Source: a virus
Virus record (IMG/VR): IMGVR_UViG_3300012936_006838
Location: 1-23,167 of that record
Direction: 5' to 3' (one strand)
DNA length: 23,167 nt
The translations under genes and the position numbers were made by a program. Below are positions 2,558-16,860 of this stretch, piece by piece. Below the pieces are notes generated by a model, which did not search any database, had not been told where the DNA came from, and worked only from the letters and a program-made list of their open reading frames with translations. Every line of letters starts with the position of its first letter. The first letter of the stretch is position 1.

Positions 2558-3671
2558 AAGACCACCAGAAGACATATTAAACAACTTTTTGAAAGCAAAT
2601 AAAGACGATCATTATAACTTTGAAGAGGAAGAAAACTATAAAGTTTCTAGCGGATCTTTGCAGTTTGATTTACAACTAGAGGGAGGTTTTGGTCCTGGAT
2701 TACATAGATTTACAGGTATGAATGAAGGAGGTAAAACCTCTGAAGCATTACAGGTAATGAAAAACTTTTTAGAGACAATACCTAATTCAAGAGGTTTTTA
2801 CATCAAAGCTGAAGGAAGACTTTCTCCAGAAATGAAAAAAAGATCAGGAGTAGATTTTGTGCATACCCACGATGAATGGGAGGATGGCAAATGCTTTGTT
2901 TTGGAAAGCAATATCTATGAATCAGTGGTGGAGATAATGACCCAGCTAGTTGACAACAATGAGAAGAAAACAAAGTTTTGTTTTATCTTGGATTCTGTTG
3001 ATGGGTTGATACTTAAAAATGATATGGCCAAGGGGTATGAAGATTCTACAAAGGTTGCAGGGGGAGCAAATGTGGCTTCTACCTTTATGAAAAAAATCTC
3101 TATAAAACTAGCAAAAAGAGGTCATATGGCTATATTCATATCTCAAGTAAGAGCCGATATAAAATTAGACCCATACACAAAAGCTCCAGTGAGACAGACT
3201 ACAGCTACAGGAGGGAATGCATTGCTTCATTTCGCAAACTGGATTATTGAATATGAGCCAAGATTTACAGGAGATCAAATCTTACAAGACCCAAGCAATA
3301 AGAAAGCTGACCCCAAAACAAACCCTATAATTGGAGTTTATGCTAAAGCTACTGTAAAAAAATCTCCAAACGAAAAAACTAACATAACGCTTAGTTATCC
3401 AATCAGATATGGCCGTACAGGAGGGACTTCTATTTGGATAGAAAAAGAAATAGTTGATTTATTAGAAGCTTACTCATTTATAAAAAAGAGTGGTGCTTGG
3501 ATTAGTATAACTGATGACTTTAAAGAGCTTCTTGCAGAGACATCATTTGAATTTCCTGAAAAGATTCAAGGTATGAACAATCTTTTTAAGCATATTGAAA
3601 GTGACCCAGAGCTAACAAATTATCTTTTCGAATATTTCAAAAAAGATATTGCAGAATTGGCTTTAGAATAA
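2550..3671 (+). CDS. uvsX: UvsX/RecA-like recombinase
   Basis: This 373-residue RecA-fold ATPase is expected to form filaments on ssDNA and catalyse strand exchange in recombination-dependent replication and repair. The Walker A motif GMNEGGKT is at residues 56-63, the candidate catalytic Glu is in KAEGR (Glu88), Walker B is FILDSVD (145-151), and the TGGNALLHFAN segment matches the conserved glycine-rich/L2 region. A basic segment with QVRADIK precedes it. The C-terminus is longer than in minimal RecA and partly acidic. It sits between a small coupled gene and an endonuclease, and upstream of helicase and primase, as in recombination modules of lytic phages. UvsX-like is preferred to host-like RecA because of the phage context and the divergent sequence. 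Confidence 0.88.
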   Translation: MSERPPEDILNNFLKANKDDHYNFEEEENYKVSSGSLQFDLQLEGGFGPGLHRFTGMNEGGKTSEALQVMKNFLETIPNSRGFYIKAEGRLSPEMKKRSGVDFVHTHDEWEDGKCFVLESNIYESVVEIMTQLVDNNEKKTKFCFILDSVDGLILKNDMAKGYEDSTKVAGGANVASTFMKKISIKLAKRGHMAIFISQVRADIKLDPYTKAPVRQTTATGGNALLHFANWIIEYEPRFTGDQILQDPSNKKADPKTNPIIGVYAKATVKKSPNEKTNITLSYPIRYGRTGGTSIWIEKEIVDLLEAYSFIKKSGAWISITDDFKELLAETSFEFPEKIQGMNNLFKHIESDPELTNYLFEYFKKDIAELALE

Positions 3672-7923: not shown

Positions 7924-7931
7924 ATTTACAT
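7915..7931. repeat. 17-base perfect palindrome at the polymerase operon start
   Basis: ATGTAAAT-T-ATTTACAT is a perfect inverted repeat with 8-base arms around one central base. It covers the predicted -10 box and the first two bases of the ATG at 7930. The position suits an operator, but AT-rich DNA produces such repeats by chance more often than GC-balanced DNA. Confidence 0.5.
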
Positions 7932-8649
7932 GTTACCAGTTTATAAGTCCACATATTCAATTGGCAAGAGTATTCTAAGTATAGATAAAATAATAGAGTT
8001 ATCAAAGTTAGATTCAGCTAAAAATTTAATTCTAGTCGAAGATTCACTTACTGGTTTTGTAAAAGCTCACAACTCTTGCAAAGATGAAGGACTACAATTG
8101 ATTTTTGGATTAAGGATAAATTGCTGTAACGATATAAGTGATGAAGACTCCTTGCAAGATTCCGATCACAAGATTATTATTTTTGCCAAGAATGATGAAG
8201 GCTGTAAACTTTTAAATAAAATTTCATCTTTTTCAAGTCTAGAGGGCAAAGGGTTTATTGATTTTAATTATTTAAATAAAGTCTGGGATGCTTCAAAATT
8301 AGATTTAGTCATCCCTTTCTATGATTCCTTTATACATCAAAATCAATTGTACTTAAAAAACTGCATTCCAAACTTTAAGGACATAAAACCTATTTTTTGG
8401 ATAGAAAAAAATAATCTACCATTTGACCCCTTAATAAGAAAGGCTACATTAGAATACTTGAAGGGTAAATACGAATCAACTTTAGTAAAAAGCATCTTCT
8501 ACGAAAATAAAGAAGATATTGAAGCGCTACAAACATATAAAATAATTTGTGGTAGAAAGTTTGGTAGAGCTGCCACTTTGAGTATGCCAAACCTAGATCA
8601 CTTTGGAAGTGATGAGTTTTGTTTTGAATCTTACCAAAAAAATAAATGA
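7930..8649 (+). CDS. dnaE (N-terminal part): DNA polymerase III alpha, PHP-like domain (split subunit)
   Basis: This 239-residue protein corresponds to the N-terminal PHP region of bacterial DNA polymerase III alpha, encoded as a separate gene. Recognisable elements are IFGLRI in the place of the 'IIGCEVY' strand of DnaE, and FAKNDEGCKLLNKISS, which matches the 'AKNxEGYxNLxKLxS' helix. The HxH metal ligands expected near the N-terminus are absent (the segment reads STYSIGKS), so PHP metal binding is probably lost and the role is likely structural. It overlaps the proofreading exonuclease by ATGA, which in turn overlaps the polymerase core. Identification depends on this context plus the two motifs; alone it would be called unknown. 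Confidence 0.78.
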   Translation: MLPVYKSTYSIGKSILSIDKIIELSKLDSAKNLILVEDSLTGFVKAHNSCKDEGLQLIFGLRINCCNDISDEDSLQDSDHKIIIFAKNDEGCKLLNKISSFSSLEGKGFIDFNYLNKVWDASKLDLVIPFYDSFIHQNQLYLKNCIPNFKDIKPIFWIEKNNLPFDPLIRKATLEYLKGKYESTLVKSIFYENKEDIEALQTYKIICGRKFGRAATLSMPNLDHFGSDEFCFESYQKNK

Positions 8650-9278
8650 CAGAGAGCCTCTTGAGATTTAATAAAAATCAACGTTATGTTGTATTTGATA
8701 CAGAAACTGAAGGTCTAAACCTCGTTAAGTCTAGACCTTGGCAGGTCGCTTGGTTAGTTGCAGAGGGTGATAAAATAATTTGTAAAGAAGACAGGTTTAT
8801 ACACTGGCCAAACTTGAATGTGTCAGATGGCGCAGCTAAAATAACAGGATTTTCTAAAAAAGAATATGAGAAAAAAAGTGAGTCACCAAATAAAGTCTGG
8901 GAAGATTTTTCTTCTGTTTTATTTGATGATAGAAACCTAATAGTAGGCCAAAATCTTTTAGGCTTTGATGTGTATATGGTTGATGTTTGGCGCAAATTAA
9001 TGGGTAGGAAGCTAGAGCAAGATTACGTTTCTAGAATTATAGATACGAAAGCTCTAGCTACTGCAATTGCAAAAAACATTCCTTTTACTGGTGGTGATTT
9101 TATAAATTGGCAGTATAGGTTACTTAACTATAGAGAAAGAGGCTTAAAGACATCTCAAGGTTTTTTACTAAAGCAATATAATATAGACCATGACCCAAAA
9201 AGGCTTCACGATGCTCTGTATGATATAGAAATGAATTTTAAAGTATTTAAAAAACAATTATTTGATTTAGAGCTATGA
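8646..9278 (+). CDS. dnaQ-like: DEDDh 3'-5' proofreading exonuclease (DnaQ-like)
   Basis: This is a 210-residue DnaQ-superfamily nuclease. All five catalytic residues are visible: Asp18 and Glu20 in FDTET (Exo I), Asp108 in GQNLLGFDV (Exo II), and His188 with Asp193 in LHDALYD (Exo III, DEDDh type). It is expected to remove misincorporated 3' nucleotides for the phage polymerase. The gene lies between the PHP-like and polymerase-core genes and overlaps both by ATGA, giving the same order (PHP, exonuclease, polymerase) in which PolC carries its exonuclease inside the PHP domain. An RNase T-like role is less likely given the placement. Confidence 0.9.
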   Translation: MTESLLRFNKNQRYVVFDTETEGLNLVKSRPWQVAWLVAEGDKIICKEDRFIHWPNLNVSDGAAKITGFSKKEYEKKSESPNKVWEDFSSVLFDDRNLIVGQNLLGFDVYMVDVWRKLMGRKLEQDYVSRIIDTKALATAIAKNIPFTGGDFINWQYRLLNYRERGLKTSQGFLLKQYNIDHDPKRLHDALYDIEMNFKVFKKQLFDLEL

Positions 9279-11830
9279 ATTTTGATACTTACACCGCTTA
9301 CGAAACGCCTTTTCCAGTCGGCGTAAAATTACCAGAAATTATAATAGAAAAAAAGTATTATGATGAAGTGCTTTGCGACCCAAAAGAAGATAATTTTCAG
9401 TTTTTAAGAAAGCTTTGTTTTAAAAAAGTTAAAGAGAGGGGTATAGACCAAAAAGATAATGCGACTATTTATTATGATAGGTTAAAAGAAGAGCTTGATA
9501 TTTTTAATGATTTGGGTTTTGTCGATTATGTTTTACTAAACTGGGATATAATAAATTTTTGTATAGAAAATGATATTCCTGTTGGGGCTGGCAGAGGAAG
9601 TGCCGCGGGGTCATTAGTTTTGTATGTTATCGGAGTAACTAATATCGATCCTATAGAATATGATTTATTTTTTGAAAGATTTGTTTCGAAAAGCAGAGCT
9701 AGGAAAATAGAACACAATGGAGAAATTTTTCTCGACGGCAGCTTACTAGCTGATGTTGATAATGATATTTCTTATGATAGACGATCTGAGGTTATAGAAT
9801 ACATAGAAAAAAAATACGTAGGTAAAACTTCAAAAATTTTAACTCTAAACACCCTTAGCGGTAAGCTCTGCATGAAAGAATGTGGTAAAATTGTACAAGA
9901 GCTTTCTGAAATGGATGTTAACCAGATTAGCGACACAATACCTAAGCACTTTGGCAAAGTAGCAAGTCTTGATGTAGCTTATGAAGAAAGCGAATCTTTT
10001 AAAAATTACGCTAATAAATATTCTAAAGTATTCGAGATAGCTAAAAAAATTGAAGGCTTAAATAAAAATACAGGTGTTCACCCATCTGGTATTTCAATAT
10101 CATTTTATGAATTAGATGAAGTGATGCCGCTACAATTTACTAATGACGGCTCCTTGGTATCTGGTTACGACATGAATGATGTGGCAAGTTTAAGTGTTAA
10201 ATTTGACATACTTGGCCTCAGAACTTTGTCAGTTGTTAATGATGTATGTAAACAGTTAAATATAAATGTTGATGAAATAGATCCTCACCACAAAAGTATT
10301 TATGCGGCTTTAGCTTGTCTTGAGTCTCCCCAAGGGCTATTCCAAATCGAAGCTGAAACTAACTTTAAAGTCTGTCATCTCATAAAACCTGAAAACCTTG
10401 AACAGCTTTCCGCTGTTGTCGCCATAGCAAGACCTGGAGCTTTAGACTTTAAGGATCATTATGCCGCTTACGTAAGAACAGGAGATTTTCAATCTGTTCA
10501 CAAATTTTTTGATGACATCTTAAGCTATACAGGTGGCATACCTCTCTATCAAGAACAGCTTATGAAAATGGCAGTTAAGGTGGGATTTAGCTTAGATGAA
10601 GCTGAGCAATTAAGAAGAATAGTTGGCAAGAAAAAAGTTGACCAAATGCCAGCTTGGAAGGCTAAAATTCAAGATAAAGTAAAAAATAACAACCTTGATC
10701 CAGCAGTAGGGGATGTTCTATGGAAAGTAGCTGAAGATTCAGCTAACTATTCATTTAATAAATCGCACTCTATAAGCTATGCATATTTAGCTGCTATAAC
10801 AATCTATCTAAAATTTAATTATCCTGAACAATTTTTCTTAAGTTTGCTAAAATATGCTAAGTACGAACCTAATTCGCATGAAGAAATAGCAAAAATAAGT
10901 CAAGAGTTGCCTCACTTTGACATTAAGTTACTGCCACCTGATTTGAACAAGTCTGATATTGATTTTAAAGTAGAGGGTAAAAATATTAGGTATGGGTTAA
11001 ACTCCATCAAAGGTGTTTCAGATAAAGTTTTACTATCTTTACTTGATTTTAGAGAAGACTCTTTCAAAAATAAATATGAAGTTTTTATGTCAGCTAAACA
11101 AGCTGGATTAAACATAGGCATTTTGTCTGCATTAATACAAGCTGGCTTACTAGACTCTTTTGTCTCCAAAAATAGATGCAGGTTAGTATTAGAAGCTCAA
11201 ACCTTCAATATTTTAACCGATAGGGAAAAGAGAAACTTCATAGCGTTGGGGGAGGCTTATGACTATGACATTTTAAACTCTATATTTGATGTTGTAAAAA
11301 AAGATCAAGTTGGAGATGACAATAGGAAAATAATGACTCAAAAAAGATTTGGCACATTTCAGAAAAAATACGAGCCTTATAGGAAAATATTCGATATGAA
11401 TAATCGCCACATTAAATATGCAAATTGGTTTTTTGAAGAAAAACTTTTAGGCTACAGCTATTCACATACAATAAGGGATGTACATGCTCATGAGCAGGAT
11501 TTTCAATCAGCTTTATCTATAAAAAGATCTGAGGAAAGGAGAAGCGTAAGGTTTGTAGGTTTTGTTACTGACGTTTTAAAAAGAACAAGTAAAAATGGTA
11601 ATAAATATGCTAGATTTCAAATTCAAGACGAAAGCGGTGTTGTTAACGCTTTATTTTTAGATTCAAATTCCAGCAGCAAGTTTACTGATTTTTTAAATTC
11701 TGGTAAAAAACTACCCAAAAAAGGCGATATTACTATAATTGAAGGCGTAACTGGCGATGATGTAGTTTTTGTAAATAAAATTAATCCAATAAGTGATAAA
11801 ATCTATATGAAGCTATCTGAAGTTAAATAG
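9275..11830 (+). CDS. dnaE: DNA polymerase III alpha, catalytic core
   Basis: This 851-residue C-family polymerase is the replicative enzyme. The palm begins with PVGAGRGSAAGSLVLY (102-117), the nucleotide-binding signature of DnaE. The catalytic aspartates are Asp160 and Asp162 in LADVDND (equivalent to PDFDVD) and Asp311 in KFDILGLRT. GLNKNTGVHPSG (261-272) matches the fingers signature. A helix-hairpin-helix region follows around 560-640 (YGLNSIKGVSDKV) and an OB domain around 755-840 (RSVRFVGFVTDVLKRTSKNG). The chain stops after the OB fold, so the tau-binding C-terminal domain of host DnaE is missing, and no clear beta-clamp motif was found. An extra segment of about 16 residues precedes the first catalytic Asp. 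With the PHP gene it totals about 1,090 residues, close to intact DnaE. Confidence 0.95.
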   Translation: MNFDTYTAYETPFPVGVKLPEIIIEKKYYDEVLCDPKEDNFQFLRKLCFKKVKERGIDQKDNATIYYDRLKEELDIFNDLGFVDYVLLNWDIINFCIENDIPVGAGRGSAAGSLVLYVIGVTNIDPIEYDLFFERFVSKSRARKIEHNGEIFLDGSLLADVDNDISYDRRSEVIEYIEKKYVGKTSKILTLNTLSGKLCMKECGKIVQELSEMDVNQISDTIPKHFGKVASLDVAYEESESFKNYANKYSKVFEIAKKIEGLNKNTGVHPSGISISFYELDEVMPLQFTNDGSLVSGYDMNDVASLSVKFDILGLRTLSVVNDVCKQLNINVDEIDPHHKSIYAALACLESPQGLFQIEAETNFKVCHLIKPENLEQLSAVVAIARPGALDFKDHYAAYVRTGDFQSVHKFFDDILSYTGGIPLYQEQLMKMAVKVGFSLDEAEQLRRIVGKKKVDQMPAWKAKIQDKVKNNNLDPAVGDVLWKVAEDSANYSFNKSHSISYAYLAAITIYLKFNYPEQFFLSLLKYAKYEPNSHEEIAKISQELPHFDIKLLPPDLNKSDIDFKVEGKNIRYGLNSIKGVSDKVLLSLLDFREDSFKNKYEVFMSAKQAGLNIGILSALIQAGLLDSFVSKNRCRLVLEAQTFNILTDREKRNFIALGEAYDYDILNSIFDVVKKDQVGDDNRKIMTQKRFGTFQKKYEPYRKIFDMNNRHIKYANWFFEEKLLGYSYSHTIRDVHAHEQDFQSALSIKRSEERRSVRFVGFVTDVLKRTSKNGNKYARFQIQDESGVVNALFLDSNSSSKFTDFLNSGKKLPKKGDITIIEGVTGDDVVFVNKINPISDKIYMKLSEVK

Positions 11831-11841: not shown

Positions 11842-14271
11842 ATGATGGGTTTAACAGATTACAATTTAACTCCAAAAGCAAAAAAAGGTATCAAAGATGC
11901 TCAAAAGTTTGCCGAAGCTAACAATCACCCCATAATAAATAATTCTCATTTAATCTATGGGTGTTTAGCAAATATTTCAGACAGCTTTTCTTTAAAGTTA
12001 AAAACTCAAAATATAAAATTAGAACTAAAACAATTTATAAAATCTTTTAAGAGTTTTTCGTCGCAAAATAAAAATTTATTTGTAAGAACTAAAGGCAGCA
12101 GCATCTGGCATGATGAGGTAAATGAAGCAATCTTTTTTGCAAAAGAGTTTTCCGATAACTTTGATAGCTATTTCATAGGTCCAGAACATATACTTTATGT
12201 TATTTTGGATATGGGAGGTGATTTTATAGAGTTCCTCCAATTAAACGGCTTGAATGTTTTTAAAGTAAAAGACATGATTGAAACTCATGTATTAGAGAGT
12301 AGTATTCCTCAGACTAGCGACCCAGCTAAAAACATTTTTCAAATAGAAACAAAAAAAAGCATTGATAACGAAATTAAAAGCAAATCTTTAGATCATTTAA
12401 CTAAATATTGCAAAAACCTTAATCACGAATTTTTATCAAATCCATCTCATAAAATATCTGGCCGCGAGTTTGAAACAGCCCAACTTATAGAAATATTATC
12501 AAAGAAAAATAAAAGTAATGCTATCCTTATAGGAGATGCTGGAGTTGGTAAAACTGCGGTAGTGGAGGGTTTAGCTCAAAAAATAGCTCAACAAGATGTG
12601 CCTCACCACATGTCTTTGATGCAAATTTGCTCTGTTGACTTAAGTGCGATGGTGGCTGGTACAAAGTATAGAGGAGAGTTTGAAAAAAGATTCAAGGCTT
12701 TAATAAAAGAAGCAGAAAAAGAACCTTACATAGTTTTATTTTTTGATGAGATACACACCTTGATTGGCGCTGGAAATTCTGAAGGTGCAGTTGATGCTTC
12801 TAATATGCTTAAACCAGCATTGGCTAGAGGTAAGATAAAATGTATTGGAGCCACAACATCAGAGGAATACAAAAAATTCTTTGAAAAAGATTCTGCGATG
12901 AAAAGAAGGTTTGATAAAATTGACATTAAAGAACCTTCATTAGAAGAAACTAAAAAAATAGTTTTAAATACTCTTTCTTACTACGAAGACTTTCATAGAG
13001 TGAAATTCAAAGAGTCAGATATTGATTTGATATTGCAATTTTGCGAAACTTATTTAAGTAATAAAAATTTTCCTGACAAGGCTTTTGACATCATAGATCA
13101 AATAGGAGCAAAAACTAAAATAAAATACAAAAATACTTCTGGGAAAATGGATACATTAAGAACCAAGTTTTCTAAAATGATGGTTCAAGCTGATAATGAA
13201 GATTTTGATGAAGAAGAATTTACTAATACTTTAAAAGACTATATACAAAGCTTATCAAATCAAAATGGTGGCAAAAGCAAGAAAGAAAAAATAAGACAGA
13301 AAGATATTATACAAGTAATAACAGAGAAAACAGGCTTATCTAAAGGTACTGTCTCAAAATCACATTCTTCTTTTAATTCGTTTGAAAAGAAAATGAATAG
13401 TGAAATTTTTGGTCAAAGTAAAGCTATAAATAAAATCTATGATTTTTTATCTTGTGCGAAAGTAGGACTAACTGATGAAAGACAACCGTTAGCTAACTTT
13501 TTATTTATTGGAGCTACAAGCGTAGGTAAAACCTTTACTGCCAAGAAAATAGCTAAAAACTTTTTAGGCAACGAAAGACACTTCATACAGATAAACATGG
13601 GGGAATATCAAGACAAAACAGGCATAGCTAAACTTATAGGCGCTAATGCAGGTTATGTTGGATATGAAGAGGGAGGTTTGTTAACAGAATTTGTAAGAAA
13701 CCAACCAAATTCAATTGTATTATTTGATGAAATTGAAAAGTGTGATCAAAAGATTCTTGATCTTCTTCTACATATTTTAGATGAAGGCTATTGCACAGAC
13801 AATCTAAATAGGAAAATAGATTTTTCTAACTGTGTTATAATAATGACATCTAATATCGGTGCCACACAAAGCAAAAAAAGAAGTGTCGGTTTTTTAGATC
13901 AACAGGAAAAACCTGAATCAATTTACAACAAAGAATTAAAAAAACACTTGCGCCCTGAGCTTCTAGCTAGAATAGAAGAGATTGTGCATTTTAAAGATTT
14001 AGACAAAAAAGATCTTTTAAATATAATAAATCAAGAATTAAAAATAATAAAAAATAGATTATTAAACAAAGGTTTTGACATTGACTTTAGTAGAAAAACT
14101 GGACCTTTTATTTTAGAAAAAGCAATTAGTGAAAACCTCCACGCTAGAGATATAAAAAATCTTGTTAAAGAAATAATTCATGTGCCTTTATCAAAATTTC
14201 TAATTTTAAATAAAACTGCCAACTGCATAAAAGTAAAGCCTGTAAAAAAAGAAATAGTTTTTAACCCTTAA
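11842..14271 (+). CDS. clpC-like: ClpA/ClpC-type AAA+ protein unfoldase
   Basis: This 809-residue Hsp100 protein has a ClpN-like N-domain (about 1-150; the LTPKAKKGIKDAQKFAE segment) and two AAA+ modules. D1 has Walker A GDAGVGKT (231-238), Walker B VLFFDEIH (298-305), pore loop KYRGEF and Arg finger MKRRFD. D2 has Walker A GATSVGKT (547-554), pore GYVG (594-597), Walker B IVLFDE (615-620) and a sensor-2-like HARD. The coiled-coil M-domain of ClpB is absent. After TSNIGA comes SVGFLDQ (671-677), aligned with the IGL/LGF ClpP-docking loop of ClpA/ClpC and missing from ClpB, so docking to a host ClpP is predicted. Two adjacent ATGs (11842, 11845) are possible starts. The stop overlaps the next gene (TAATG), linking it to the kinase-like protein. 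Confidence 0.9.
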   Translation: MMGLTDYNLTPKAKKGIKDAQKFAEANNHPIINNSHLIYGCLANISDSFSLKLKTQNIKLELKQFIKSFKSFSSQNKNLFVRTKGSSIWHDEVNEAIFFAKEFSDNFDSYFIGPEHILYVILDMGGDFIEFLQLNGLNVFKVKDMIETHVLESSIPQTSDPAKNIFQIETKKSIDNEIKSKSLDHLTKYCKNLNHEFLSNPSHKISGREFETAQLIEILSKKNKSNAILIGDAGVGKTAVVEGLAQKIAQQDVPHHMSLMQICSVDLSAMVAGTKYRGEFEKRFKALIKEAEKEPYIVLFFDEIHTLIGAGNSEGAVDASNMLKPALARGKIKCIGATTSEEYKKFFEKDSAMKRRFDKIDIKEPSLEETKKIVLNTLSYYEDFHRVKFKESDIDLILQFCETYLSNKNFPDKAFDIIDQIGAKTKIKYKNTSGKMDTLRTKFSKMMVQADNEDFDEEEFTNTLKDYIQSLSNQNGGKSKKEKIRQKDIIQVITEKTGLSKGTVSKSHSSFNSFEKKMNSEIFGQSKAINKIYDFLSCAKVGLTDERQPLANFLFIGATSVGKTFTAKKIAKNFLGNERHFIQINMGEYQDKTGIAKLIGANAGYVGYEEGGLLTEFVRNQPNSIVLFDEIEKCDQKILDLLLHILDEGYCTDNLNRKIDFSNCVIIMTSNIGATQSKKRSVGFLDQQEKPESIYNKELKKHLRPELLARIEEIVHFKDLDKKDLLNIINQELKIIKNRLLNKGFDIDFSRKTGPFILEKAISENLHARDIKNLVKEIIHVPLSKFLILNKTANCIKVKPVKKEIVFNP

Positions 14272-15335
14272 TGAAATTATCATCTCTTTTTAAACATAAG
14301 GCTTACGCATTCAACCAGCCTAGCGACACTGAGCAAGATTGTAGATTCGCCCAGCAGCTAATTAAAAAAGTAAAACCTAAATTCAAAGCTGACAAAATTA
14401 CACTGTCATCAGTTTGTGATGATTACGATGTTTTCCATATAGTTGACGAATCCTCTGAGTTTTTTAAACTAAAAATATCTTTAAGTGACGCGAAAGGCGT
14501 GTTTAAAAAAGAAGTTACTTCTTTAAGAAGTCTAGGGAAACATCATGTTCCAAAGTACGTTTGTCACGGTGAGGCAAAAATTGGTGATGAAGTACAGTAT
14601 TTACTAACAAAAGCTGTGCAATCGGAAAGTATCAGGAATACAGGGCGTTCTATTCTCGCTGAGAACATGAAGCAATTTTTTGCTAATTATTTTGAGTTTG
14701 CAGGAACACGAGCTGTTAGGAATTCGTATAAAACAAATTTAAAAGATTTTTACGACAATTTAGAGCCTGAAAAACAACTTCCAGAAGAATCTATTACAGC
14801 TATAAAAAGTTACACAGACTATGCTAAGTGCAAAAAATTCTTTATTGTTTTAAAGGATGAAATAAACAAAAGTAAAAATGAACTACAGCATCTTTTCAAG
14901 CAAAAGTGTCATGGTAACTTAACTTTAGATTGTATATTCTATAACAATCACTTTTTCTACTTAGATAACTTAGATCAAACTTGCATGGGGCATCCATATA
15001 TAGATATATGCGATTTGATTCTAGATAGTGGCTTTTCTAAACAAAATCACATCCCAATATTTGATGAATTTTGTTCAATAGGCTCAATAAATAATGATAG
15101 AGATCTTTTTTATAGGTTTTTTGAACTACAACTTAGAAAAAAACTAGGAACTTTACTGTTAGCATACATAAAAGAAGTTTATCTGTATGATTCTTACAGA
15201 TATAATAAAATAATAGAAATAGCAGATACATTTTCGCATTTATATGAGAGATTTTGCAGCATACCTATTTTCAGTCAAAATAAAAATTTCATAATGAAAA
15301 CGATTTGTGAGCCTATTTTTGGTGTAAAAGCTTAA
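14271..15335 (+). CDS. aminoglycoside-phosphotransferase/kinase-fold protein, catalytic loop degenerate
   Basis: This is a 354-residue protein with the architecture of the APH/choline-kinase superfamily. An N-lobe strand carries FKLK, a helix with KEVTSLRSLG supplies the partner Glu, YLLTKAV looks like the hinge, and the C-lobe has CHGNLTLDCIFYNN followed by YLDNLDQ and GHPYIDICDLI. The usual catalytic loop HGDLxxxN reads HGNLTLDC, so both the catalytic Asp (now Asn) and the metal-binding Asn (now Cys) are changed, while the later Asp is kept. It may be a pseudokinase or use altered chemistry. Its start overlaps the stop of the Clp-like gene, so a link to the unfoldase, for example as a substrate adaptor or modifier, is an inference from coupling. 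Antibiotic resistance is unlikely. Confidence 0.65.
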   Translation: MKLSSLFKHKAYAFNQPSDTEQDCRFAQQLIKKVKPKFKADKITLSSVCDDYDVFHIVDESSEFFKLKISLSDAKGVFKKEVTSLRSLGKHHVPKYVCHGEAKIGDEVQYLLTKAVQSESIRNTGRSILAENMKQFFANYFEFAGTRAVRNSYKTNLKDFYDNLEPEKQLPEESITAIKSYTDYAKCKKFFIVLKDEINKSKNELQHLFKQKCHGNLTLDCIFYNNHFFYLDNLDQTCMGHPYIDICDLILDSGFSKQNHIPIFDEFCSIGSINNDRDLFYRFFELQLRKKLGTLLLAYIKEVYLYDSYRYNKIIEIADTFSHLYERFCSIPIFSQNKNFIMKTICEPIFGVKA

Positions 15336-15355: not shown

Positions 15356-16192
15356 ATGCCATTGCCCTCTCCAAACGATAAAGAAAAACGCTCTGATTTT
15401 ATAAGTAGATGCGTTACTAATTTATCTACAAAAGGCGAATTTGAGGGTAATAAGCAAAGAGTTGCTGTTTGCATATCACAATTTGAAAAAGCTTCTAAAA
15501 AAGCGTCTGTCGCAGTTGGCAATGAGTTTTTAGATGGCAGAGGTCCATGGGACGATCAAGATTTATTTTATTTATATAACACACCAAAAACTAAAATGAG
15601 CGAAGCTAGCTATACCGATAAGAAAAAGTCTATGTCTATGAAAATGGACGATAAGAAGAAGTCTATGTCTATGAAAATGGACGAAAAAGAAGCCAAAGTA
15701 TTCAAGTCATACATGAGCCATTGCGTCAGAAACGATGCAGATATGACAGATACCAAGGACATGAATATGGATAATACCATGAAAGCATGTGCTGTTCAGT
15801 ATGATAAAGATAGATCCATGTTGATGGAAAATTCAAATGGTGAACTTACTGAAAAACAAAAGAAACTCCCTCCTGCTCTACAAAAAGCCATCTTAGATAA
15901 GATGAAAAAAGAAGGCAAGGCGCATCATTACGGAGATAAAGAAAAAAGCAAAGCCAGATACGGAGAAGCTTATCCTGAATTAGATAAAAAAATGAAGGCT
16001 GCCGATGATCCAATGGCCCACGCTTATCCTACAAAAGAGCAAGCTATGAAAGATGCTAAAAAGATGGGTCTTTCAGGAGTCCACATGCACAAAGACAAAG
16101 ATGGTAAAACGATTTATATGCCTGGAGGAAGCCATGAGGAATTTATGAAAAGACATAAAGAAATCATGGAAGAAAAAAAAAAGGCAAAATAG
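15356..16192 (+). CDS. Lys/Met-rich phage protein with duplicated Cys module
   Basis: This 278-residue, highly charged protein starts with MPLPSPNDKEKRSDFISRC, a small domain often found in phage structural or head-associated proteins. The Cys module (FISRCVTN ... VAVCISQFEK, residues about 15-46) is repeated in diverged form near residues 118-155 (YMSHCVRN ... KACAVQYDKD). Between them is a tandem 11-residue repeat containing KSMSMKMD. The C-terminal part (LPPALQKAIL, then MGLSGVHMHKDKDGKTIYMPG) is another recurring phage module. ATG 15356 is chosen over a TTG two codons earlier because homologous-looking proteins begin MPLP. The gene ends in an A-rich tract with a slippery heptamer, and a -1 shift would extend it to about 321 residues. 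Function is unknown; a virion or scaffold-associated role is inferred. Confidence 0.8.
   Translation: MPLPSPNDKEKRSDFISRCVTNLSTKGEFEGNKQRVAVCISQFEKASKKASVAVGNEFLDGRGPWDDQDLFYLYNTPKTKMSEASYTDKKKSMSMKMDDKKKSMSMKMDEKEAKVFKSYMSHCVRNDADMTDTKDMNMDNTMKACAVQYDKDRSMLMENSNGELTEKQKKLPPALQKAILDKMKKEGKAHHYGDKEKSKARYGEAYPELDKKMKAADDPMAHAYPTKEQAMKDAKKMGLSGVHMHKDKDGKTIYMPGGSHEEFMKRHKEIMEEKKKAK
15625..15689 (+). repeat. tandem 33-base coding repeat, two copies
   Basis: Two adjacent, nearly identical 33-base units encode K-K-K-S-M-S-M-K-M-D plus one acidic residue each. They differ by only a few bases, which suggests recent slippage or unequal recombination. The units stay in frame and lie in a low-complexity linker between the two Cys modules. 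Confidence 0.75.
16177..16183 (+). other. predicted -1 frameshift slippery site A-AAA-AAG
   Basis: In the frame of the preceding gene the codons are AAA AAA AAG inside a run of ten A (16173-16182), giving the heptamer A AAA AAG used by E. coli dnaX. The zero-frame stop TAG is at 16190-16192, three codons later. The -1 frame is open from here to 16320 and encodes a conserved phage domain without its own start. No strong dnaX-like upstream Shine-Dalgarno or close hairpin was found, so slippage of RNA polymerase on the A run is an alternative. Confidence 0.65.
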
Positions 16193-16320
16193 AGAGTAGT
16201 CTTTGGGAAAATATCAGAAAAAAAAGAGAACGCATTAAGAGCGGTTCAGGCGAAAAAATGCGTAAAAAAGGAGACAAAGGCGCTCCTACATCTGATCAAA
16301 TTAAAAAAGCTCAAAAATAA
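16183..16320 (+). CDS. C-terminal domain read in the -1 frame (45 residues)
   Basis: The frame begins GKIESSLWENIRKKRERI and continues with SGSGEKMRKKGDKGAPTSD, ending at TAA 16318-16320. This Trp-plus-basic pattern (LWxNIxxKRxRIxxGSGEKMRKxGxKGAPT) is a recurring short domain in many phage genomes, usually as a separate small gene with its own ATG. Here the frame has a stop at 16156-16158 and no ATG, GTG or TTG before the internal Met at 16258, which would remove the conserved half. Expression as an extension of the upstream protein is therefore the simplest reading. If the A run were one base longer in reality, the two would be a single uninterrupted gene. Function is unknown. Confidence 0.7.
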   Translation, partial: GKIESSLWENIRKKRERIKSGSGEKMRKKGDKGAPTSDQIKKAQK

Positions 16321-16364: not shown

Positions 16365-16371
16365 ATTGTAC

Positions 16372-16860
16372 ATGATCGTACAGTACTATAAACCTAATTC
16401 TAAAAACACGGGTTGTGCATTTAGTTTTGACATTGGGTCAAATCAGAAAAATAATGAGCCTTGCATTTACATAAGAGCCATAAAACAATTTTCTTGGAAT
16501 AACGAAAGAAGAACAGGTTCTTTTTCAGAAAATTCTAAAAATCCTGACAAATCTATTTCTTTAAAAATTAATGAAATCGAAGCTGGCGGATTTATAAATG
16601 CCATAGAAAACTATTGTGATTTTTCTGCTTTTCATTCATTTCAAGATAATAAAACATCTATATCTTTTAAACCTTATACCAAAAAAGATGGCACAAAAGC
16701 ATTTTCTTTTGGCATAACAAGAAACTCCGCTAATAAGTTTGGCATAGGAGTTGAGATGAGTGAAGCTTATGGCTTACTTGAGTTTTTAAAAGTATTCTTA
16801 CAAGAACTTTACCTTTATAGATTACAAAAAACAAAAGAGTATAAAGCCTCACAACAATGA
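16372..16860 (+). CDS. conserved-type phage protein, possible ssDNA-binding (Whirly/PurA-like) protein
   Basis: This is a protein of about 162 residues. The ATG at 16372 is preferred to an in-frame TTG at 16366 because the promoter-like box leaves no room upstream and the protein then begins MIVQYYKPNSKNTGCAFSFD. The chain alternates strands (YIRAIKQFSW, ISLKINEIEAGGFINAIEN, TSISFKPYT, KAFSFGITRN) and ends in a helix (LLEFLKVFLQEL), a layout like that of Whirly/PurA-type nucleic-acid-binding folds. Similar short proteins recur in marine phage genomes. With no classical SSB visible in this replication region, ssDNA binding is a plausible but unproven role. It overlaps the following glycosyltransferase by ATGA. 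Confidence 0.55.
   Translation: MIVQYYKPNSKNTGCAFSFDIGSNQKNNEPCIYIRAIKQFSWNNERRTGSFSENSKNPDKSISLKINEIEAGGFINAIENYCDFSAFHSFQDNKTSISFKPYTKKDGTKAFSFGITRNSANKFGIGVEMSEAYGLLEFLKVFLQELYLYRLQKTKEYKASQQ

Follow-up and report, generated by a model that had tools for sequence, protein, structure and literature searches.

Probable recoding at a ten-A run adds a conserved module to a protein of uncultured phages

How can a conserved protein module be expressed when it lies out of frame behind another gene and has no start codon of its own? This question is raised by a gene in a linear virus contig of 23,167 bases, analysed over its whole length (hereafter the window), that stems from uncultured phages of probably marine origin. 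The gene stops shortly after a run of ten A, and the module stands just beyond, in the -1 frame. The initial annotation had proposed that recoding at this run, either a programmed -1 frameshift on the heptamer A_AAA_AAG or slippage on the run itself, appends the module to the gene product. The features concerned are the following:

15356 to 16192, + strand: zero-frame gene, 278 aa from its ATG (translation; full-length relatives exist)
16159 to 16320, + strand: -1 frame, open from stop to stop, without ATG, GTG or TTG (translation)
16173 to 16182, + strand: run of ten A (A10), the putative slippage run and sole homopolymer of at least nine in the window (sequence)
16177 to 16183, + strand: A_AAA_AAG heptamer, in phase for -1 ribosomal slipping (sequence)
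16190 to 16192, + strand: TAG stop of the zero frame (sequence, translation)
16195 to 16317, + strand: 41-residue phage module (PHROG 16028), read only after a shift (profile match)
16231 to 16262, + strand: inverted repeat CGCATT/AATGCG, about 48 nt past the heptamer (sequence)

Sequence and translations bear out the layout given by the initial annotation. The heptamer lies within the ten-A run, the zero frame (3' end GAA AAA AAA AAG GCA AAA TAG) stops three codons beyond the run, and the -1 frame, devoid of start codons, remains open until the TAA at 16318-16320 and encodes ...KKKGKIESSLWENIRKKRERIKSGSGEKMRKKGDKGAPTSDQIKKAQK. The shifted product has 276+45 = 321 aa, versus 278 aa for the unshifted one, and the inverted repeat is where it had been placed. 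The 278-aa protein is a lysine-rich mosaic, made of an N-terminal MPLP...RC...QR.AVC module and of a C-terminal module just before the junction that resembles DUF3721, below the Pfam cut-off. The product of the -1 frame matched PHROG 16028 with E=1.1e-15 over profile positions 5-44 of 50, which is far from chance. This module had been described as a well-known short phage domain; widespread and conserved it is, but it has no known function, and its matches in cultured phages are mostly small genes annotated as hypothetical.

Long A runs were scarce on the coding strand of the window. When codons were shuffled within amino acids, 5.2 runs of at least nine A were expected, versus one seen, and 2.0 runs of at least ten A were expected from the same shuffle of the window. 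This depletion suggests that such runs are costly in this phage. The single run of the window coincides exactly with the frame switch, and in the syntenic relatives examined, runs of at least ten A or ten T were found solely at the junction.

Relatives were gathered by scans of 2.9 million viral contigs, which returned many homologues; those in frame begin with MPLP or MPIP, as does the protein of the window. Among unique rows containing both the pre-junction and the C-terminal modules, 50 had them in one frame and seven did not (the window, L004, L204/L028, L044, L082, L002 and L003). L029 with L203/L282, one locus split over two contigs, gave an additional out-of-frame case. Altogether, the window and seven other viral loci were out of frame at the same junction, with A10 in seven of them and A9 in L082. 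In the window, L004, L204/L028, L029/L203/L282 and L044, A10 is followed by G and the module is in the -1 frame; the same frame is found after the A9 then G of L082. In L002 and L003, A10 is followed by C and the module is in the +1 frame, so that the shift is -1 in six loci (L082 included) and +1 in two. The surrounding DNA of the out-of-frame copies differs by up to about 24%, and they come from separate assemblies.

Inspection of the run lengths revealed that the 50 unique in-frame relatives have three to six A at the junction, once eight, and never more than A8. A run of at least nine A with a broken frame was thus found in 7/7 unique rows versus 0/50 (1/C(57,7)=3.8e-9, a value that ignores shared descent), and a pattern scan of viral contigs that allowed other run lengths found no in-frame copy with a long run. 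Runs of at least nine A and frame breaks were tied one to one, and shifts of both directions were represented. The initial annotation had named signs for or against its reading, namely the same heptamer or a start codon for the module in relatives, and eleven A in accurate reads. No start codon was found for the module in the related out-of-frame contigs, and no in-frame A11 in the related contigs; the heptamer was kept in the -1 loci but not in L002/L003, where C follows A10. A census of all 179 unique module instances agreed, with 169 having an in-frame start, one lying at a contig edge and nine having no start: the eight out-of-frame loci and L270, whose module is truncated. The L270 copy (3150-3230) has lost the N-terminal half of the module; what is left lies in the +1 frame behind an A8 run and is perhaps decaying.

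The gene order around the slippage gene is a Clp-like ATPase, the gene at 14271-15335, the slippage gene, the gene at 16366-16860 and a glycosyltransferase. The main out-of-frame clade has this order, as do L207, L209 and L240, in which the module is in frame or absent at the C-terminus. Since this order is shared, these relatives represent one locus in four states: module in frame, in -1, in +1, or no C-terminal module. The -1 locus L004 grouped with the +1 loci L002/L003 with a support of 100/99, and being their nearest relative it places the flip of direction inside the clade. The stretch from the run to the CTT of the module is 18 bases in L004 and 17 in L002, and loss of one base with A10 kept would be the simplest path to the flip. 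Only one flip was observed, so that the mixture of directions is weak in number. The A9 site of L082, which lies among in-frame relatives, arose independently.

Substitutions in the module were counted. Within the main out-of-frame clade, loci differed from one another at 2-10 silent and 1-6 amino-acid-changing sites (L002 and L003 being equal), with pN/pS values of about 0.05-0.18, and of about 0.08-0.15 against L082. Variable columns at the three codon positions numbered 7/3/28 in the shifted frame of the module, and 17/10/36 in frame 0 upstream of the run. The module is therefore under strong purifying selection in the shifted frame, and the codon-position patterns on either side place the change of the selected frame at the A run. 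As judged from these alignments, the module is evidently translated, and no conserved codon could start it alone. In L028/L204 and L002 a stop stands in the shifted frame immediately upstream, so the shift must occur within a short stretch around the run. The L002 and L003 modules are identical over all 123 bases, their branch has about 3-4 silent changes and no amino-acid change (read by eye from the alignment), and, with only two +1 contigs, selection after the flip rests on few changes.

Taken from the sequences, these observations make recoding of some kind at the junction, not error, very probable. The proposal that the conserved phage module is joined to the gene product by recoding at the A run is upheld by the recurrence of the site in relatives, with neither a start codon nor A11. 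As to the two mechanisms that had been offered, slippage on the A run is the better fit; the A_AAA_AAG heptamer fares worse, given the opposite shift of L002/L003 and a hairpin without covariation.

We moderately favour slippage of RNA polymerase on A10. The run would be a programmed slippage site, on which the polymerase, of the host or of the phage, would stutter and yield transcripts with varying run length. Ten-A transcripts would encode the 278-residue protein, whereas eleven-A (or eight-A) transcripts would bring the module into frame and give a protein of about 321 residues that ends in the PHROG 16028 module. In L002/L003 the stretch after the run is one base shorter, and transcripts with nine or twelve A would restore the frame of the module. 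With transcripts of mixed length, the phage would make a short and a module-bearing form of one protein. We infer, rather than observe, that the polymerase and not the ribosome slips, and the same goes for the ratio of the two products.

Two features expected of programmed transcriptional realignment (PTR) were found at the site: the frame changes at a run of about nine A or more (A10 in seven loci and A9 in L082), and the direction is not conserved among orthologs (-1 and +1). Purifying selection on the second-frame product, also found, is expected of conserved recoding of either kind. In published practice, mixed direction among orthologs is taken as transcriptional realignment and a single direction as ribosomal (Antonov et al. 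2013, PMC3711429); by this rule, the mixed direction among close orthologs favours transcriptional slippage. The run length of 9-10 also fits slippage by RNA polymerase and known bacterial cases: in many genomes, selection against long runs is evident at nine A or T (PMC1088944), the E. coli enzyme was inactive with fewer than eight A (PMC6260861), and the A11 of Citrobacter tssM slips at about 25% (PMC4256274). Two points temper this reading. Intact genes of these phages contain A9 runs as well, which means that the presence of a run is in itself no sign of its use; and since phages obtain equivalent products by ribosomal shifts of +1, -1 and -2 too (PMC5009743), mixed direction is not proof.

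Slippage of the ribosome on a homogeneous mRNA, either -1 at A_AAA_AAG or by looser sliding on the poly-A lysine codons, is unlikely, yet it keeps some arguments. The -1 contigs, with L082 among them, have the heptamer in phase and would thus permit -1 slipping by ribosomes; and should L002/L003 have stopped expressing the module only recently, this mechanism alone would explain the remaining loci. Moreover, repeated AAA codons let E. coli ribosomes slide in either direction (PMC4363877), which, together with the mixed-direction Ig-like extensions of phages (PMC5009743), keeps the ribosome in consideration. In L002/L003, however, translation after a -1 slip would end a few codons on, short of the module, so that no in-phase slippery heptamer is conserved across the orthologs; besides, the heptamer needs fewer A than the runs of 9-10 observed. 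An AAGGAG upstream of the run, considered as a Shine-Dalgarno-like stimulator, is present in L044 and L029 only and is thus not conserved. No conserved downstream structure was found among the relatives: fold z-scores ranged from -2.6 to +0.35, with a covariation term of about zero. Since L002/L003 need a +1 shift and no RNA structure covaries, the canonical -1 heptamer is not the best mechanism. The CGCATT/AATGCG hairpin, considered as a stimulator, was rejected (weak energies in most relatives, covariation term +0.09), and the one Rfam match near the site, far below the curated score, was taken as chance.

It is very improbable that the module is a separate small gene, started by translational coupling at a non-standard ATA that overlaps the TAG. 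The module does stand alone as a gene in pelagiphages and cyanophages, but these copies have normal start codons. An ATA is found at the junction in the window, L002, L003, L004 and L029, but L028/L204 and L044 have GTA at this position, and L082 has neither ATA nor NTG there. No near-cognate codon is conserved, and no conserved NTG start for the second frame was found in the orthologs; the idea was rejected because the codon is not conserved. Still less credible is phase variation, in which run length would change during DNA replication and turn the module on or off in single phages. Poly-A can be unstable in replication, and some bacteria use it for phase variation (PMC3711429), but drift of the run length predicts about one third of copies in frame, and the scan found out-of-frame A10 only. 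Least credible of all is that the run was miscalled, or that a real mutation broke the frame and the module is decaying: long A runs are generally error-prone and mutation-prone, but the break recurs in eight loci from separate assemblies and lineages, with exactly A10 throughout the main clade, the same contigs have A9 runs inside intact genes that were read without error, L029 and L282 overlap across the run by exactly 77 bases, as expected of k-mer short-read assembly, and the module is under purifying selection. L029 and L282 come from one sample and both break at the junction, with that exact overlap, suggesting that several coexisting phages share the slippery site.

What the module does can be approached through its gene company. 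In pelagiphage HTVC168P and the uncultured Mediterranean phage MedDCM-OCT-S46-C10 it is a gene of its own, about 50 codons long, with the scaffolding gene on one side and the capsid gene on the other:

L285 1486-1635: stand-alone module gene, HTVC168P
L284 1492-1638: stand-alone module gene, MedDCM-OCT-S46-C10

These positions hint at a head-assembly role for PHROG 16028; in Roseobacter phage CRP-4, the module does not adjoin annotated head genes. The DUF3721-like part weakly resembles a stretch of the HGTV-1 prohead protease, and also a HATV-3 protein encoded two genes before the major capsid gene. From such company we infer that the protein or its module probably acts in head assembly. In six relatives without a C-terminal copy (L240, L243, L254, L262, L268 and L277) the module lies directly before the DUF3721-like module, which indicates that it moves within the gene. 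Structure prediction of the in-frame relative L014, made with 21 sequences, gave a mean pLDDT of 64, with about 45-53 for the module.

No match to cultured phages was found by DNA search, no close cultured phage was found for the slippage gene or its downstream neighbour, and a search of bacterial and archaeal genomes found no relatives. The polymerase of the window had distant matches only, below 30% identity among the matches listed. DNA polymerase III alpha seems to be split over adjacent, slightly overlapping genes (window 7930-11830):

7930-8649: PHP-domain protein
8646-9278: exonuclease-like protein (judged by eye)
9275-11830: DnaE-like polymerase

The genes just after the slippage gene in L268, L262 and L277 may encode DUF1549/DUF1501 proteins. 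Such proteins are typical of Planctomycetes and Verrucomicrobia, and these neighbours are a possible hint to the hosts of the phage group. A tail assembly chaperone of the G/GT type was considered as an identity for the slippage gene and rejected: there was no profile match beyond a chance-level chaperone hit (E=0.09), and the neighbours are the Clp-like ATPase, the gene at 14271-15335 and the glycosyltransferase, with no tape-measure gene nearby.

Taken as a whole, we advance only tentatively, at somewhat below even confidence, a view in three parts: that a conserved ten-A run serves tailed phages as a heritable site where slippage of RNA polymerase, in whichever direction, equips a fraction of the copies of one protein with a mobile head-assembly module; that in one lineage the required direction was reversed by a change of a single base, the module being retained; and that a second slippery site arose separately. 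The same syntenic gene with the module in frame, in -1, in +1 or absent constitutes a natural experiment, and these four states at one locus make it possible to ask whether the mixture of short and long products matters, or only access to the module. For annotation of AT-rich phages, a rule follows: where at least nine A closely precede a stop, there may be a conserved extension that is overlooked by gene callers.

Conserved transcriptional slippage has hardly been described in tailed phages, our literature search having returned one proposal, in a Campylobacter phage. For the methyltransferase of phage CP220, a frame break in a poly-A tract was likewise attributed to transcriptional slippage (PMC2853527); that case concerns a single gene and is a suggestion only, and the passage concerned gives no comparative conservation. 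Lambda G/GT is similar in being a phage gene with a C-terminally extended second product, but no homology to it was found for the present gene, beside which no tape-measure gene occurs and where a poly-A site takes the place of the G/GT arrangement. Citrobacter rodentium tssM (A11), Thermus dnaX (A9) and the IS630-family transposases share with it at least nine A shortly before a stop and two products, and in the transposases direction is not conserved among orthologs either, both being found. Those are bacterial genes or insertion sequences, whereas here the gene belongs to a tailed phage, and slippage was demonstrated by experiment for tssM and dnaX, here by comparison only. The locus adds one more case to a familiar theme, in which recoding attaches a mobile module to a phage protein; its counterparts are the Ig-like domains appended by frameshift to capsid or tail proteins of phage T3, Lactobacillus phage A2 and Listeria phages (PMC5009743). 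The present locus differs in its short basic PHROG 16028 module, in a ten-A run without stimulating structure and in a mechanism that is probably transcriptional. In both cases a small mobile domain is placed at the C-terminus of some copies only of a phage protein, and, depending on the phage, -1, +1 or plain in-frame fusion leads to one outcome (PMC5009743).
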